From: Flavobacteria bacterium BAL38
GTDB taxonomy: Bacteria > Bacteroidota > Bacteroidia > Flavobacteriales > Flavobacteriaceae
NCBI GenBank assembly: GCA_000169355.1
Contig: AAXX01000001.1
Span: 310,001 to 374,000 of the forward strand
Direction: 5' to 3'
Length of the DNA: 64,000 bases
Within the stretch, counting starts at the first letter, position 1; every line of letters begins with the position of its first letter. The position numbers and the translations under genes are program-made. Positions 31,785 through 36,660 of this stretch are shown piece by piece. Below the pieces are notes generated by a model, which saw only the letters and a program-made list of their open reading frames with translations, did no database searches and was not told the origin of the DNA.

Positions 31785-34700
31785 ATGAGATACTTATCGT
31801 TACTGTTAGTATTCTTTCTTTCCATATCTGGAAATGCACAAGAATATTTTCCAAAAAATGATGGTGTAAAACAAAGTTTTAAAAACTATTTTGCACTAAC
31901 AAATGCTACTATTTATGTGTCTGCAACTCAAAAAATTGAGAAAGCAACTCTTCTTATCAAAGAAGATAAAATTATTGAAGTTGGCACAACCGTTTCAATT
32001 CCTAAAGGAGCTACAATTATTGATGCAACCGGAAAAACAATTTATCCATCGTTCATTGAGTTGTATAGCGAATTTGGAATTAGCAAACCATCTCCAAGAC
32101 CAAACGGAAATTTTACACCACAGTACGACACCAATCGAGAAGGATATTACTGGAACGACCATATTAAACCAGAATACAATGCTTACGAAAACTTAAACTA
32201 TGATTCTAAAGCAGCTGGAAACTTAAGAGAAGTTGGTTTTGGAACCATTTTAAGTCATCACAATGATGGAGTAATTGCTGGAACTGGACTACTTTGGACA
32301 TTAAACGACTTTGGCTCAAACGCCGATAGAATGTTAAAAGAAAAAGTTTCACAACATTTCACGTTTAGTAGAAGTAAATTTACGAAACAAAGTTACCCTT
32401 CCTCTATGATGGGAAGTATGGCTTTAATTCGCCAAGTATTTCATGATGCAAAATGGTATGCTAAAGGAAATGCAAGTAACAAAGATTTATCGCTAGAAGC
32501 ATTTAATTCTAATAAATCATTATTACAAATTTTTAATGCTGGAGATAAATTAAATTCCTTGAGAGCTGCAAAAATTGGAAATGAGTTTGGAATAAAATAT
32601 TTAATTAAAGGAAGTGGAAACGAATTTGAACGTATAAACGAAATTAAAAAAACAGGTGCCACTTATATTATTCCATTAAATTTCCCAGACGCATATGATG
32701 TATCTGATCCTTATTTAGCGCAACAAGTAAGTTTGAGCGATATGAAGTTTTGGAATCAAGCACCTTTCAATTTAAAAATATTATTAGATAATAATGTTTC
32801 TTTTATACTTTCTACAACTGATTTAAAAGAAACTAAATCATTTTTATCTAATTTAAGAAAAGCTGTTTTATATGGATTACCAAAAGATAAAGCATTATTA
32901 GCTTTAACTGAAACACCTGCAAAATTGGTAAATCAATTTGACAAAGTTGGATCTTTATCTAAAGGGAAATTAGCCAATTTCATTATTGTTTCTGGAGACA
33001 TTTTTGAAGATAAAAGCAATATCCTAGAAAACTGGGTACAAGGAAATCGAAACATCATTGATAAAATTAACCCTACTGACATTAGAGGTACTTATGATTT
33101 AGTTTTCGATAACCATAAATTTGAATTAAAAATCGAAGGCGAAACTTCAAAATTTGAAGCAAAAGCAGTTAAAGACAGTATTAACTTTGGAACAAAAATT
33201 CAGTTTAATGATCCTTGGGTAAATTTAGTTATTAAAAATCAAGATACTACAAAAGCTAATTTCGTTAGAATTTCTGGAACTTTTGTTAAAGATATGATGC
33301 AAGGAAAAGCCGTTTTAGAAAACGGAAACGAAACAACTTGGACAGCGACTAAAAGAGCAGCAGAAGTTAAAGAAGATAAAAAGAAAGAGGATAAAAAAGA
33401 CGAACCAAAAGTACCGTCAATGTATGAAGTAACCTATCCTAATATTTCTTTTGGAACAGTTACAAAACCAAAGCAGGAAACTATTTTGTTTAAAAATGTA
33501 ACCGTTTGGACTGGGGAAAAAGAAGGTATTTTAAAAGATACAGATGTTTTAATCCAAAACGGTAAAATTGCCAAAATTGGAAAAAACCTTCCTACAACTG
33601 GAGCAAAAGTTGTTGATGGAACCGGTAAACACTTAACTGCCGGAATCATAGACGAGCATTCTCATATTGCAATTTCAAATGGAGTTAATGAAGGAGGTCA
33701 AAATTCATCTGCAGAAGTTACCATTGAAGACGTAGTAAATTCAGATGATATCAACATTTATAGAAATTTAGCCGGTGGTGTTACCTCTGCAAATTTATTG
33801 CATGGTTCTGCAAATCCAATTGGAGGTCGTGCTGCTTTTATTAAATTAAAATGGGGTTATTCTCCAGACGAAATGATCGTTAAAGATGCTCCAAAATATA
33901 TCAAATTTGCTTTAGGAGAAAACGTAAAACAATCCAACTGGGGCGATTTTTCACGAAACCGTTTCCCACAATCTCGTATGGGAGTTGAACAAGTTTATGA
34001 AGATTATTTCACAAGAGCTATCGAATACAAAAACGAATGGAATGCCTACAAATCTGGAAAAGGTAAAAACAAAATTATGCCAAGATTTGATATAGAAATG
34101 GAAGTTTTAGGCGAAATTTTAGCAAAGAAACGTTTCATCACATGTCACTCTTATGTGCAATCAGAAATTAACATGTTAATGAAATTAGCAGAACGTTATG
34201 GATTTAAAATTCAAACTTTTACTCACATTTTAGAAGGTTATAAATTAGCAGATAAAATGACATCACATGGAGTAGCCGGATCTACTTTTGCTGACTGGTG
34301 GGCGTATAAATATGAAGTAAACGATGCCATTCCTTATAACGCAGCAATTATGCAAAACGAAGGTGTGCAAGTTTCTATCAATTCTGATGATGCCGAAATG
34401 TCGCGTCGTTTAAATCAAGAAGCAGCAAAAACAGTTAAATACGGAAACGTTACTGAAGAACAAGCTTGGAACTTTGTAACCTTAAATCCTGCAAAAATTC
34501 TTCAAATTGACAACAAAGTAGGAAGCATTAAAGTAGGAAAAGATGCCGATGTTGTATTATGGTCAGAAAGTCCATTATCAATATACACAAGAGCTGAAAA
34601 AACATTAGTAGACGGAATCATTTTCTATGACTTAGAAACAGAAACAGCAACTTTAGCATCTATTCAAAAAGAGCGAGCAGAATTAATCAATTTGATGTTA

Positions 34701-34814
34701 GATACTAAAAACAAAGGAATGAAAACGCAATTACCTAAGAAAAAAGAAAACGGTCACTACCACTGTGATACTTTAGGAGAATATTGCAAAGAGTCTCACT
34801 ATAAATATAATTAA
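31785..34814 (+). CDS. Exported protein with two amidohydrolase domains
   Basis: The 1009-residue product starts with a signal peptide (MRYLSLLLVFFLSISGNAQ). The first domain (about 35-420) has an amidohydrolase frame but lacks the HxH metal motif: FIELYSEFG stands where HxHxG is expected. A linker with a charged run (KEDKKKEDKKDEPKVP) leads to a second amidohydrolase domain (about 560-970). This one keeps metal ligands DEHSH, ITCHSYVQSE, TFTHILEG and NSDDAEMS, and closes with a typical KVGSIKVGKDADVVLW segment. So the C-terminal half is probably catalytic and the N-terminal half structural. Substrate is unknown; imidazolonepropionase-like hydrolases are the closest type. The homologous partner gene follows at 35365 beyond an inserted cassette. 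Confidence 0.88.
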   Translation: MRYLSLLLVFFLSISGNAQEYFPKNDGVKQSFKNYFALTNATIYVSATQKIEKATLLIKEDKIIEVGTTVSIPKGATIIDATGKTIYPSFIELYSEFGISKPSPRPNGNFTPQYDTNREGYYWNDHIKPEYNAYENLNYDSKAAGNLREVGFGTILSHHNDGVIAGTGLLWTLNDFGSNADRMLKEKVSQHFTFSRSKFTKQSYPSSMMGSMALIRQVFHDAKWYAKGNASNKDLSLEAFNSNKSLLQIFNAGDKLNSLRAAKIGNEFGIKYLIKGSGNEFERINEIKKTGATYIIPLNFPDAYDVSDPYLAQQVSLSDMKFWNQAPFNLKILLDNNVSFILSTTDLKETKSFLSNLRKAVLYGLPKDKALLALTETPAKLVNQFDKVGSLSKGKLANFIIVSGDIFEDKSNILENWVQGNRNIIDKINPTDIRGTYDLVFDNHKFELKIEGETSKFEAKAVKDSINFGTKIQFNDPWVNLVIKNQDTTKANFVRISGTFVKDMMQGKAVLENGNETTWTATKRAAEVKEDKKKEDKKDEPKVPSMYEVTYPNISFGTVTKPKQETILFKNVTVWTGEKEGILKDTDVLIQNGKIAKIGKNLPTTGAKVVDGTGKHLTAGIIDEHSHIAISNGVNEGGQNSSAEVTIEDVVNSDDINIYRNLAGGVTSANLLHGSANPIGGRAAFIKLKWGYSPDEMIVKDAPKYIKFALGENVKQSNWGDFSRNRFPQSRMGVEQVYEDYFTRAIEYKNEWNAYKSGKGKNKIMPRFDIEMEVLGEILAKKRFITCHSYVQSEINMLMKLAERYGFKIQTFTHILEGYKLADKMTSHGVAGSTFADWWAYKYEVNDAIPYNAAIMQNEGVQVSINSDDAEMSRRLNQEAAKTVKYGNVTEEQAWNFVTLNPAKILQIDNKVGSIKVGKDADVVLWSESPLSIYTRAEKTLVDGIIFYDLETETATLASIQKERAELINLMLDTKNKGMKTQLPKKKENGHYHCDTLGEYCKESHYKYN

Positions 34815-34866
34815 GCAAAACGATTAATTTTAATGAAAATATAAAAAGAAAAAATTCAATCGAACA

Positions 34867-34896
34867 ATTGTCCCCTTGAGGGGACTTTAGGGGTGT
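34867..34896. repeat. Left 30-bp inverted repeat of the DUF559 cassette
   Basis: It is the exact reverse complement of 35265-35294. The core contains TCCCCTTGAGGGGA followed by CTTTAGGGGTG. Flanking bases do not extend the match on either side. Confidence 0.9.
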
Positions 34897-34928
34897 AAAA
34901 AAGTTCATGAAAAACAAAATCATACCAT

Positions 34929-35306
34929 ATGTCACACTTGAAAGATTTCGCAAGAGAACTAAGAAAAAACAGTACACTTAGCGAAGTAATTCTTTGGCAA
35001 AACATAAAAATGAAAGGATATGATTTTCAATTTCACAGACAAGTCCCAATGTTAGATTATATTGTTGATTTTTATTGTCATGAGTTAATGTTAGCTATTG
35101 AAATTGATGGTGATAGTCATCTTTATAAATACGAATATGATAGATTTAGACAAGGTGAATTAGAAAAACTAGGTGTTCATTTTTTAAGATTTAGTGATAC
35201 TGATGTAAAACAAAATTTATTTTCCGTTTTACTATCATTGGAACAAGAAATCGAAAGATTAAAAACACCCCTAAAGTCCCCTCAAGGGGACAATCCTTCT
35301 AATTAA
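34929..35306 (+). CDS. DUF559 (Vsr-like) endonuclease-domain protein
   Basis: The 125-residue protein matches the DUF559 family, small PD-(D/E)xK proteins related to very-short-patch-repair endonucleases. The start is MSHLKDFARELRKNSTLSEV, with the family's LWQNIKMKGYDFQFHRQVP. The catalytic-like region is LDYIVDFYCHELMLAIEIDG, where Asp and the E-I-D triad could bind metal, followed by RQGELEKLGVHFLRFSD. The last residues, TPLKSPQGDNP, are encoded by the right inverted repeat, a tail I recall on many DUF559 proteins in Bacteroidota. Function is unknown: mismatch repair, defence or self-mobility are all possible. It lies between two amidohydrolase genes. Confidence 0.85.
   Translation: MSHLKDFARELRKNSTLSEVILWQNIKMKGYDFQFHRQVPMLDYIVDFYCHELMLAIEIDGDSHLYKYEYDRFRQGELEKLGVHFLRFSDTDVKQNLFSVLLSLEQEIERLKTPLKSPQGDNPSN
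35265..35294. repeat. Right 30-bp inverted repeat, overlapping the DUF559 C-terminus
   Basis: It reads ACACCCCTAAAGTCCCC then TCAAGGGGACAAT, the exact reverse complement of the left arm. It encodes the tail TPLKSPQGDN of the DUF559 protein. The left arm read on the minus strand encodes the same peptide. Confidence 0.9.
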
Positions 35307-35364
35307 GTTTAGATTCATACTTAGTTAGTTTAAATATTTTGAATAAAATTAAAAAGATATATAA

Positions 35365-36660
35365 ATGAAAAAAATAACATTCATCCTTTGTATTATTTCT
35401 TTGTTTGGGTTTGCCCAACAAACTCCAGCTCCAAAACAAAGTAAATCGATTTTAATCTTAGGTGCAAAAGCGCATTTAGGAAACGGACAAGTAATTGAAA
35501 ATAGTTTAATTTCAATTATTGATGGAAAAATCGCAAACATTGGCGATGCAACTGTAATGAAACCCGCTAAACATGACATCATGATTGATGCTTCTGGAAA
35601 GCATGTTTACCCTGGTTTCATAGCACCAAACTCAACTCTTGGTTTAGTAGAAATCGATGCTGTTAGAGCTTCTGATGACGAAAGTGAAATTGGTGAATTT
35701 AATCCGCATGTTAGAAGTATCATTGCTTATAATGCTGAATCTAAATTGGTTGAAACTACGCGTCCAAATGGCGTGTTATTAGCTCAAATTACACCAAGAG
35801 GCGGAAGAATTCCAGGAACATCTTCAATCGTTCAATTAGATGCTTGGAATTGGGAAGATGCAACTGTAAAAACTAACGACGGAATTCATTTGAACTGGCC
35901 AAGAAGCTACTCAAGAGCAGGTTGGTGGGCAGAACCAGGAGGAATAGAACTTAACAAAAATTACGAACCACAAATAAAAGCTATACAGGAATATTTTGAT
36001 AATGCTTTTGCTTATTTAGGAAGTAAAAATGCTAAAAAAGACATTCCATTTGAAGCTATGAAAGGTTTACAATCGGGCGAAAAAACGTTGTATATAAATG
36101 CAAATGGAGAAAAGGAAATTATTGATGCTGTTTTATTTAAAAAGAAAAACAACATTACTAAAATGGTAATTGTTGGCGGTTATTATGCATTTAAAGTAGC
36201 CAATTTATTAAAAGAAAACGAAGTTTCAGTTTTATTAAAACGAGTGCACGACTTGCCTTTATTAGAAGATGAAGATGTAAATTTACCTTATAAAAATGCA
36301 AAATTATTAGTTGATGCTGGTGTTTTAGTTGGTTTACAAAATGCTGGCGACATGGAGCGTATGCAAACTAGAAACCTTCCTTTTTATGCTGGAACTTGTG
36401 CTGCTTGGGGATTAACTAAAGAACAAGCATTACAATTAATTACAGGAAACTCGGCTAAAATATTAGGAATAGACAAGCAATACGGAACGTTAGAAACTGG
36501 TAAAAGCGCTACTTTATTTATTTCTGAAGGTGATGCATTAGATATGAAAACGAACGTGATTTCCTTCGCTTTTATTGACGGAAGACAAATCAGTTTAGAA
36601 AGTCATCATACCGAATTGTATGAACGCTACAAAGGAAAATTTGAACAACAAAAAAAATAA
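35365..36660 (+). CDS. Exported amidohydrolase-family protein, probably catalytically inactive
   Basis: The 431-residue protein has a signal peptide (MKKITFILCIISLFGFAQQ) and the amidohydrolase start ILILGAKAHLGNGQVIENSL with DASGKHVYPGFIAPNSTLG. The metal HxH is absent there (PNS replaces it), and no later His/Asp ligands stand out. The C-terminus has the family's LTKEQALQLITGNSAKILGI and YGTLETGKSATLFI. It looks like a non-catalytic partner of the two-domain amidohydrolase encoded upstream, which has the same arrangement in its own N-terminal half. Originally the two genes probably formed an operon, now interrupted by the DUF559 cassette. A terminator follows. Confidence 0.85.
   Translation: MKKITFILCIISLFGFAQQTPAPKQSKSILILGAKAHLGNGQVIENSLISIIDGKIANIGDATVMKPAKHDIMIDASGKHVYPGFIAPNSTLGLVEIDAVRASDDESEIGEFNPHVRSIIAYNAESKLVETTRPNGVLLAQITPRGGRIPGTSSIVQLDAWNWEDATVKTNDGIHLNWPRSYSRAGWWAEPGGIELNKNYEPQIKAIQEYFDNAFAYLGSKNAKKDIPFEAMKGLQSGEKTLYINANGEKEIIDAVLFKKKNNITKMVIVGGYYAFKVANLLKENEVSVLLKRVHDLPLLEDEDVNLPYKNAKLLVDAGVLVGLQNAGDMERMQTRNLPFYAGTCAAWGLTKEQALQLITGNSAKILGIDKQYGTLETGKSATLFISEGDALDMKTNVISFAFIDGRQISLESHHTELYERYKGKFEQQKK

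Follow-up and report, generated by a model that had tools for sequence, protein, structure and literature searches.

A DUF559 nuclease gene between inverted hairpin repeats in Flavobacteria bacterium BAL38 is probably a copy of a REP-like mobile element

Bacterial genomes commonly contain REP-like palindromes. In the passages of a 2013 survey consulted here, a dedicated enzyme is assigned to the GTAG kind alone, and the CGTC kind, which includes rickettsial RPE-4/RPE-6, is described without a dedicated transposase (PMC3733652). The same passages give CGTC REPs an unpaired CGTC (or TGTC/CCTC) tag, a stem of 8-9 bp whose base is AT, and a CCA tail, and report these palindromes from several phyla, Bacteroidetes included, and from within genes (PMC3733652). 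In Marinomonas, the consulted part of another report describes copies clustered around two RAYT REPtrons, which was read as recent arrival followed by local spread (PMC8266576). In the open-licence PMC literature, we found no description linking DUF559 to palindromic repeats, although such an association may be known elsewhere.

In the window (the whole 64-kb stretch of the BAL38 genome that was analysed), we identified a 428-bp cassette (34867-35294) whose ends form a perfect 30-bp inverted repeat, with the arms ATTGTCCCCTTGAGGGGACTTTAGGGGTGT and its reverse complement, and which is located between two amidohydrolase genes. The features of the locus are as follows:

31785..34814, + strand: upstream amidohydrolase gene, 1009 aa (PF01979, E 2.1e-26)
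34815..35364, no strand: intergenic stretch of 550 bp, corresponding to 0-11 bp in the 10 relatives read
34867..34896, + strand: left terminal repeat, 30 bp, identical at 30/30 positions in 4 of the 7 aligned congener cassettes (G148, G195, G240, G313)
34870..34885, no strand: hairpin in the left repeat, GTCCCCT TG AGGGGAC, by pattern match and fold
34907..34930, + strand: out-of-frame remnant of the conserved N-terminus (MKNKIIPY), from comparison with DUF559 relatives
34929..35306, + strand: DUF559 nuclease gene, 125 aa (PF04480, E 1.7e-26), with fold matches to I-Bth0305I and Vsr
35265..35294, - strand: right terminal repeat, 30 bp, the exact reverse complement of the left arm
35276..35291, no strand: hairpin in the right repeat, by pattern match
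35365..36660, + strand: downstream amidohydrolase gene, 431 aa (PF07969, E 5.7e-8)

A scan of the whole window for non-overlapping perfect inverted 18-mers returned this arm pair only, and the 16-bp hairpin pattern matched twice, with no match expected (up to two mismatches; 100 shuffles). Each arm, folded alone, forms a 6-bp stem of about -11 kcal/mol (RNA parameters), and a second G-run (TTTAGGGGTGT) lies on the inner side of the hairpin in each arm. Thus, the main features named in the first-pass annotation, namely, perfect 30-bp inverted ends with inner hairpins, a single DUF559 gene between them and amidohydrolase genes on both sides, were all confirmed by the scan, the folds and the Pfam matches listed above.

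As in REP/RAYT systems (REPtrons, REPINs), short hairpins are inverted around one small nuclease gene, and solo copies occur elsewhere. Unlike in those systems, the enclosed gene encodes a PD-(D/E)xK-type DUF559 protein rather than a HUH tyrosine transposase (Y1_Tnp), GTAG is absent from both window arms and their borders, and the second G-run adjoins the hairpin. Although the element works like a REPtron, tests of the enclosed enzyme and of the GTAG tag both show that it is not one. With the CGTC REPs, as described in the consulted passages, the DUF559 repeats share palindromic structure, presence in Bacteroidetes and occurrence inside genes (PMC3733652). However, by the criteria given there, the window stem is shorter (6-7 bp) and has neither an AT base nor CGTC (PMC3733652); a TGTC string is present in the window arm, but its GTC is paired in the stem, unlike the tag of CGTC REPs. 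Furthermore, the DUF559 repeats are accompanied by a candidate enzyme, unlike the CGTC REPs.

The last 13 codons of the DUF559 gene run through and beyond the right repeat, such that residues 113-122 (TPLKSPQGDN) are encoded within the arm, as the first-pass annotation had noted, and the stop codon is completed 12 bp past the arm. Read in reverse, the left arm does encode the same tail peptide, but this follows automatically from an inverted repeat and adds no evidence. The further suggestion that element end and protein tail are co-selected found no support: the predicted structure (mean pLDDT 85.9) falls below 50 at residues 116-125, which are predicted to be disordered, and the DUF559 proteins of several relatives terminate ahead of the repeat. 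At the other end of the protein, relatives share the N-terminus M(R/K)NKIIPY(S/N/A)P.L(K/R)EYAR. In the window, the frame that starts with MKNKIIPY at 34907 is subsequently lost, and the present ORF begins at an internal ATG, about 10 conserved N-terminal residues short. Because the N-terminus is frameshifted, the window copy may be decaying and possibly dead; still, its reading frame covers the entire DUF559 domain, and the structural model is confident.

Comparison with other genomes shows the site without the cassette. The two amidohydrolase genes, 550 bp apart in the window, are at most 11 bp apart in 10 of the 10 readable relatives, including the five closest, with 92-95% protein identity. 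These 10 and the window copy come from 30 loci, the other 19 of which were not parsed by the search pattern and were left unscored; in four of the 10 (L113, L115-L117), a stop codon overlapping the next start was read directly from the DNA. From these junctions, it appears that the stretch was inserted at the amidohydrolase pair, its loss from every relative read being less likely. The extra DNA amounts to about 548 bp and so exceeds the 428-bp cassette by about 120 bp, with about 52 bp to the left and about 70 bp to the right of the arms. Hence, of the empty site with a precise junction that had been anticipated, the cassette-free site exists in all 10 readable relatives, but the junction is not that of the repeats. 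We detected neither a target-site duplication nor an exact junction at the amidohydrolase locus, and in comparison with an insertion sequence or MITE, there is an empty site, but the insert is about 120 bp longer than the inverted-repeat unit. For one solo repeat in this genome (G000 C14:435757), no exact insert could be defined because the intergenic DNA is too divergent among relatives, and for the second solo site, only short matches without alignable flanks were found in relatives.

The ends of the cassette are conserved around diverging interiors in congeners. Counting aligned positions only, both arms in G148 and G240 are identical to those of the window (30/30 and 30/30), whereas the interiors match at 287/362 and 295/357 positions, respectively (79-83%). 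The arms match at 30/30 (left) and 29/30 (right) positions in G195 and G313, at 28/30 and 28/28 in G199, at 19/26 and 29/30 in G027, and at 24/29 and 21/27 in G174, which carries another repeat type; the right arms of G199 and G313 are broken by another palindrome. Constant ends around a changing gene would be expected of a recognised site, although concerted change of the repeats could also be their source. The palindromes that interrupt the right arms of G199 (L335, CCCGATAGCTATCGGG) and G313 (L336, TTCCGATATCGGAA) are located within the hairpin, as if palindromic elements inserted into one another.

We further examined the association of DUF559 genes with inverted repeats, scoring the best ungapped inverted repeat (IR) from about 450 bp before to 400 bp after the DUF559 domain, with randomly chosen positions of matching geometry within these loci as controls (800 for the 80 named loci). 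IR scores of at least 15 were reached by 44 of the 80 named DUF559 loci compared to 4 of the 800 controls (about 110-fold), and scores of at least 20 by 27 of the 80 compared to none of the 800. In the congener set (43 loci with frames of up to 250 aa plus L075, with a 465-aa frame; the long-frame loci L079-L083 were left out), the corresponding counts were 32/44 against 4/430 controls and 31/44 against 1/430. The flanking of DUF559 genes by inverted palindromes, which the first-pass annotation had suggested testing, is far above chance in both the named and the congener samples. The loci scoring at least 15 include, with taxa as labelled, Bacteroidota, Planctomycetota, Nitrospirota, Nitrospinota, Neomarinimicrobiota and a Brevinematales MAG; 36 of the 80 named loci score below 15, including all three cyanobacterial and both Patescibacteria-type loci (9-10) and the one from Chloroflexi.

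The type of repeat follows the type of nuclease. Among the loci typed i-iv (n=31), 29 carried their own repeat type (G027 also another) and two carried none of the four, and no typed locus had a foreign repeat type alone; the repeat and protein patterns were written after the sequences had been seen, did not require an inverted pair and left four loci untypable, so that this comparison is descriptive. Three genomes (G055, G092 and G105) each encode a type-ii and a type-iii nuclease, both flanked by their own repeat type, and such matching within a genome is less open to the objection of shared descent. Nine congener loci of DUF559 subfamily 'A' have none of repeat types i-iv, with IR scores of 9-15. 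Across 70 of the 129 loci (80 named and 49 congener) that had an IR score of at least 15 and no stop in the matched stretch, protein similarity correlated with repeat similarity (Spearman 0.53), a value reached in 0 of 500 permutations. The coefficient was 0.39 among pairs below 60% protein identity (with permutations being those of the full 70-locus set). Shared descent contributes to this correlation.

Beyond the cassettes, the repeats occur on their own. In this genome, the 25-mer repeat core is present in four copies, two of them solo, and contig C9 carries a diverged copy. Across the 150 genomes sampled from the genus, with G000 (this genome) among them, we found 25 copies of the core in 11 genomes, 19 of which flank no DUF559 match; the reversed 25-mer pattern had no copy in the 150 genomes. 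The type-ii repeat was found in all 10 genomes with a type-ii gene (2-16 copies, cassette arms included), compared to 8 of the 140 others (1-6 copies; Fisher p 3.7e-11, uncorrected for relatedness). The copies tend to lie near the gene: in G130, assembled as a single 4.0-Mb contig, 10 of the 12 copies outside the cassette are within 80 kb of it (binomial p 7e-13 against uniform spread, with the 80-kb limit set after the positions had been seen), and in G146 and G092, many copies share a contig with the DUF559 gene. Concentration near the gene is also a feature of the two Marinomonas REPtrons, as far as the consulted part of that report goes (PMC8266576). In G146 (L304, 4253-4844), seven type-ii hairpins are spaced at 95-98 bp, about 8 kb from a DUF559 cassette. 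G090 (C9:121846-121967; L093, L099) contains two inverted type-i repeats 70 bp apart, in the orientation opposite to that of the cassette, and no DUF559 match anywhere in the genome.

Given this resemblance to REP systems, the palindromes might be REPs that owe their movement to a tyrosine transposase of the IS200-like type (RAYT) encoded elsewhere, with DUF559 as a passenger between two copies. Such enzymes are at hand, with Y1_Tnp (PF01797) matches in 108 of the 150 genomes and three weak ones in this genome (best E 1.1e-8), and the REP ends around RAYT genes are similar in look, judging from the consulted parts of two reports (PMC3733652, PMC8266576). We nevertheless consider this explanation unlikely: 3 of the 10 type-ii carriers have no Y1_Tnp match (none in G055; G128 and G130 are outside the 108 listed matches) and yet hold 7, 16 and 14 repeats, respectively, cassette arms included; the repeat type tracks the DUF559 type inside single genomes; and the window arms lack GTAG.

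DUF559 also occurs inside conserved genes. We found 102 near full-length DUF559 matches in the 150 genomes, 59 of them in frames longer than 250 aa and 43 not (matches down to E 1.3e-21; stop-to-stop frames, possibly cut at contig ends). In many of the long-frame copies that were read, DUF559 lies within MetH (at two sites), LeuRS, RecG or a UvrD/AddA-like protein, of which only MetH was confirmed by Pfam, the other names being assigned by reading. The inserts are often edged by peptides, for example PPTPEGGA and PPSGAGGAG, which are translated palindromes. This genome contains such a copy outside the window (G000 C14:744463-744786; L080), with an in-frame DUF559 between two B12 domains of MetH, as delineated by Pfam, and AGCCCCCCAACCCCCGAAGGGGGAGCT-type palindromes on either side. 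Unlike inteins, this MetH contains no splicing (Hint) domain detectable by Pfam. In Winogradskyella and a few others, an in-frame DUF559 fusion precedes a downstream enzyme gene.

As at the amidohydrolase pair, filled and empty alleles coexist among relatives at the MetH linker, where 7 of the 30 loci read are filled, including that of this genome; the seven best-matching MetH genes comprise four empty (G067, G012, G023, G115) and three filled ones (G000, G032, G134). The filled genes of G000, G032, G134 and G021 share codons over roughly the first 9 nt beside the insert, unlike the empty genes. This might point to co-conversion, but we do not count it as proof of homing, given that the filled genes of G101, G126 and G065 have empty-type codons beside the insert and that flanks more than 20 codons away do not differ clearly between filled and empty genes. 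At the second MetH site, L241 and L244 have CQTEL(A/V)EVQ-like peptides in a linker without DUF559, possibly representing another palindromic repeat family in the same linker.

The ends of the long-frame copies are often eroded. By raw count, 6 of the 20 long-frame loci have IR scores of at least 15 and 14 score lower, and the seven inserts read as RecG have eroded ends with scores of 6-8. The copies L320 (G044) and L321 (G147), both read as LeuRS, contain an in-frame DUF559 whose palindromes are degraded and whose catalytic residues have changed, as though the guest were domesticated or decaying. Invading elements that subsequently decay would be expected to lose palindromes, as in RecG, or catalytic residues, as in L321.

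The predicted structure of the window protein is most similar to 3hrl (Z 15.5), followed by the homing endonuclease I-Bth0305I (Z 13.5, rmsd 2.0 over 94 residues). Only 3hrl and I-Bth0305I chains were found by Foldseek at E 0.001 or better, and these also came first in a sequence profile search of solved structures (3r3p, I-Bth0305I, E 3.2e-4). The similarity to Vsr (Z 10.7) says little by itself because mitochondrial ribosome proteins reach nearly the same scores (Z 10.6 and 10.2). Five residues (E19, D47, D60, H64 and D71) are invariant in a 32-row alignment. The modelled core and the conserved E, D, D/H, H and D place DUF559 in the PD-(D/E)xK superfamily, with the Vsr/EDxHD homing-endonuclease fold, EDxHD being what we take to be the class label of I-Bth0305I. 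In common with I-Bth0305I, its closest fold and profile relative after 3hrl, DUF559 shows patchy filled and empty sites at one MetH position; unlike homing endonucleases, it is bounded by inverted palindromes and is also found free-standing between genes.

The Vsr repair enzyme nicks T:G mismatches and is linked to a cytosine methyltransferase. DUF559 could serve the host as a Vsr-like nuclease for mismatch repair, around which hairpins gather through its action on them or by chance. In addition to the similarity to Vsr in the predicted structure, Caulobacter VsrA contains a DUF559 domain and is proposed, in the consulted part of its description, to be a mismatch-repair enzyme (PMC12907096); by our own residue mapping, the five invariant residues appear to fit those named there for Vsr/VsrA (PMC12907096). 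However, unlike Vsr and VsrA, the DUF559 genes analysed here are repeat-bounded and patchy, being present in 80 of the 150 genomes even with weak partial matches included. Moreover, the hairpin ends are conserved around different loci, copies lie inside unrelated genes, and, 3hrl aside, the nearest relative of known structure is a homing endonuclease, all of which makes a repair role improbable.

The first-pass annotation had also reasoned that repeats found widely without DUF559 at ordinary gene ends would be terminators. Such solo copies indeed exist: those outside cassettes are apparently intergenic, as judged by eye from the frames, and occur also in genomes without a matching DUF559, as expected if the repeats were bidirectional terminators, ordinary hairpins at gene ends, that form an inverted pair by coincidence. 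We dropped this explanation, which we regard as very improbable, because the hairpins lack a following T-run and the association with DUF559 far exceeds the local null (44/80 against 4/800); in addition, the arms are identical where the interior differs. No Rfam family was found in the window at 34500-35700 at E 1 or better. With no T-run, and with a type and a copy number that both vary with the nuclease, the repeats behave like REP elements. Least probable of all is a small restriction or anti-phage nuclease, for which PADLOC produced only weak matches (best mREase_II, E 0.0012): NCBIfam gives only DUF559 at 64.6 bits, far under the 218-bit cut-off, and the gene is alone between the repeats, with amidohydrolases as neighbours.

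On balance, the cassette is probably a copy of a REP-like mobile element that is mobilised by its DUF559 nuclease rather than by a tyrosine (RAYT) transposase. The two inverted hairpin repeats would be the element ends, and the solo repeats elsewhere would be non-autonomous or remnant copies. From the patterns described above, we infer recognition, cleavage, a copying or transposition route and present activity of the family: the nuclease would recognise its cognate palindrome or the empty target and make a nick or break, into which host repair would copy the element. The element could spread in this way to nearby places or, in the style of a homing endonuclease, to the allelic site of another genome. 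Palindromes free of in-frame stops would allow it to settle in protein linkers (MetH and, by reading, LeuRS and RecG), where an in-frame element would persist as an extra domain without splicing. We know of no DUF559 protein that has been found to cleave a palindrome.

To conclude, DUF559 cassettes look like an overlooked family of mobile elements. We put at about even odds the broader proposition that DUF559 nucleases drive widespread palindromic mobile elements in several phyla, with subfamily-specific hairpins, REP-like families and in-frame homing into genes such as MetH, LeuRS, RecG and AddA-like ones, where they persist unspliced. Since nuclease and repeat correspond type for type, bench experiments could now address what mobilises repeats of this kind. 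DUF559 thereby acquires a likely function within a selfish element, and its in-frame copies indicate a way for mobile DNA to reside in conserved genes without splicing. If this is true, DUF559 would be the missing enzyme for at least some gene-invading palindromic repeats.
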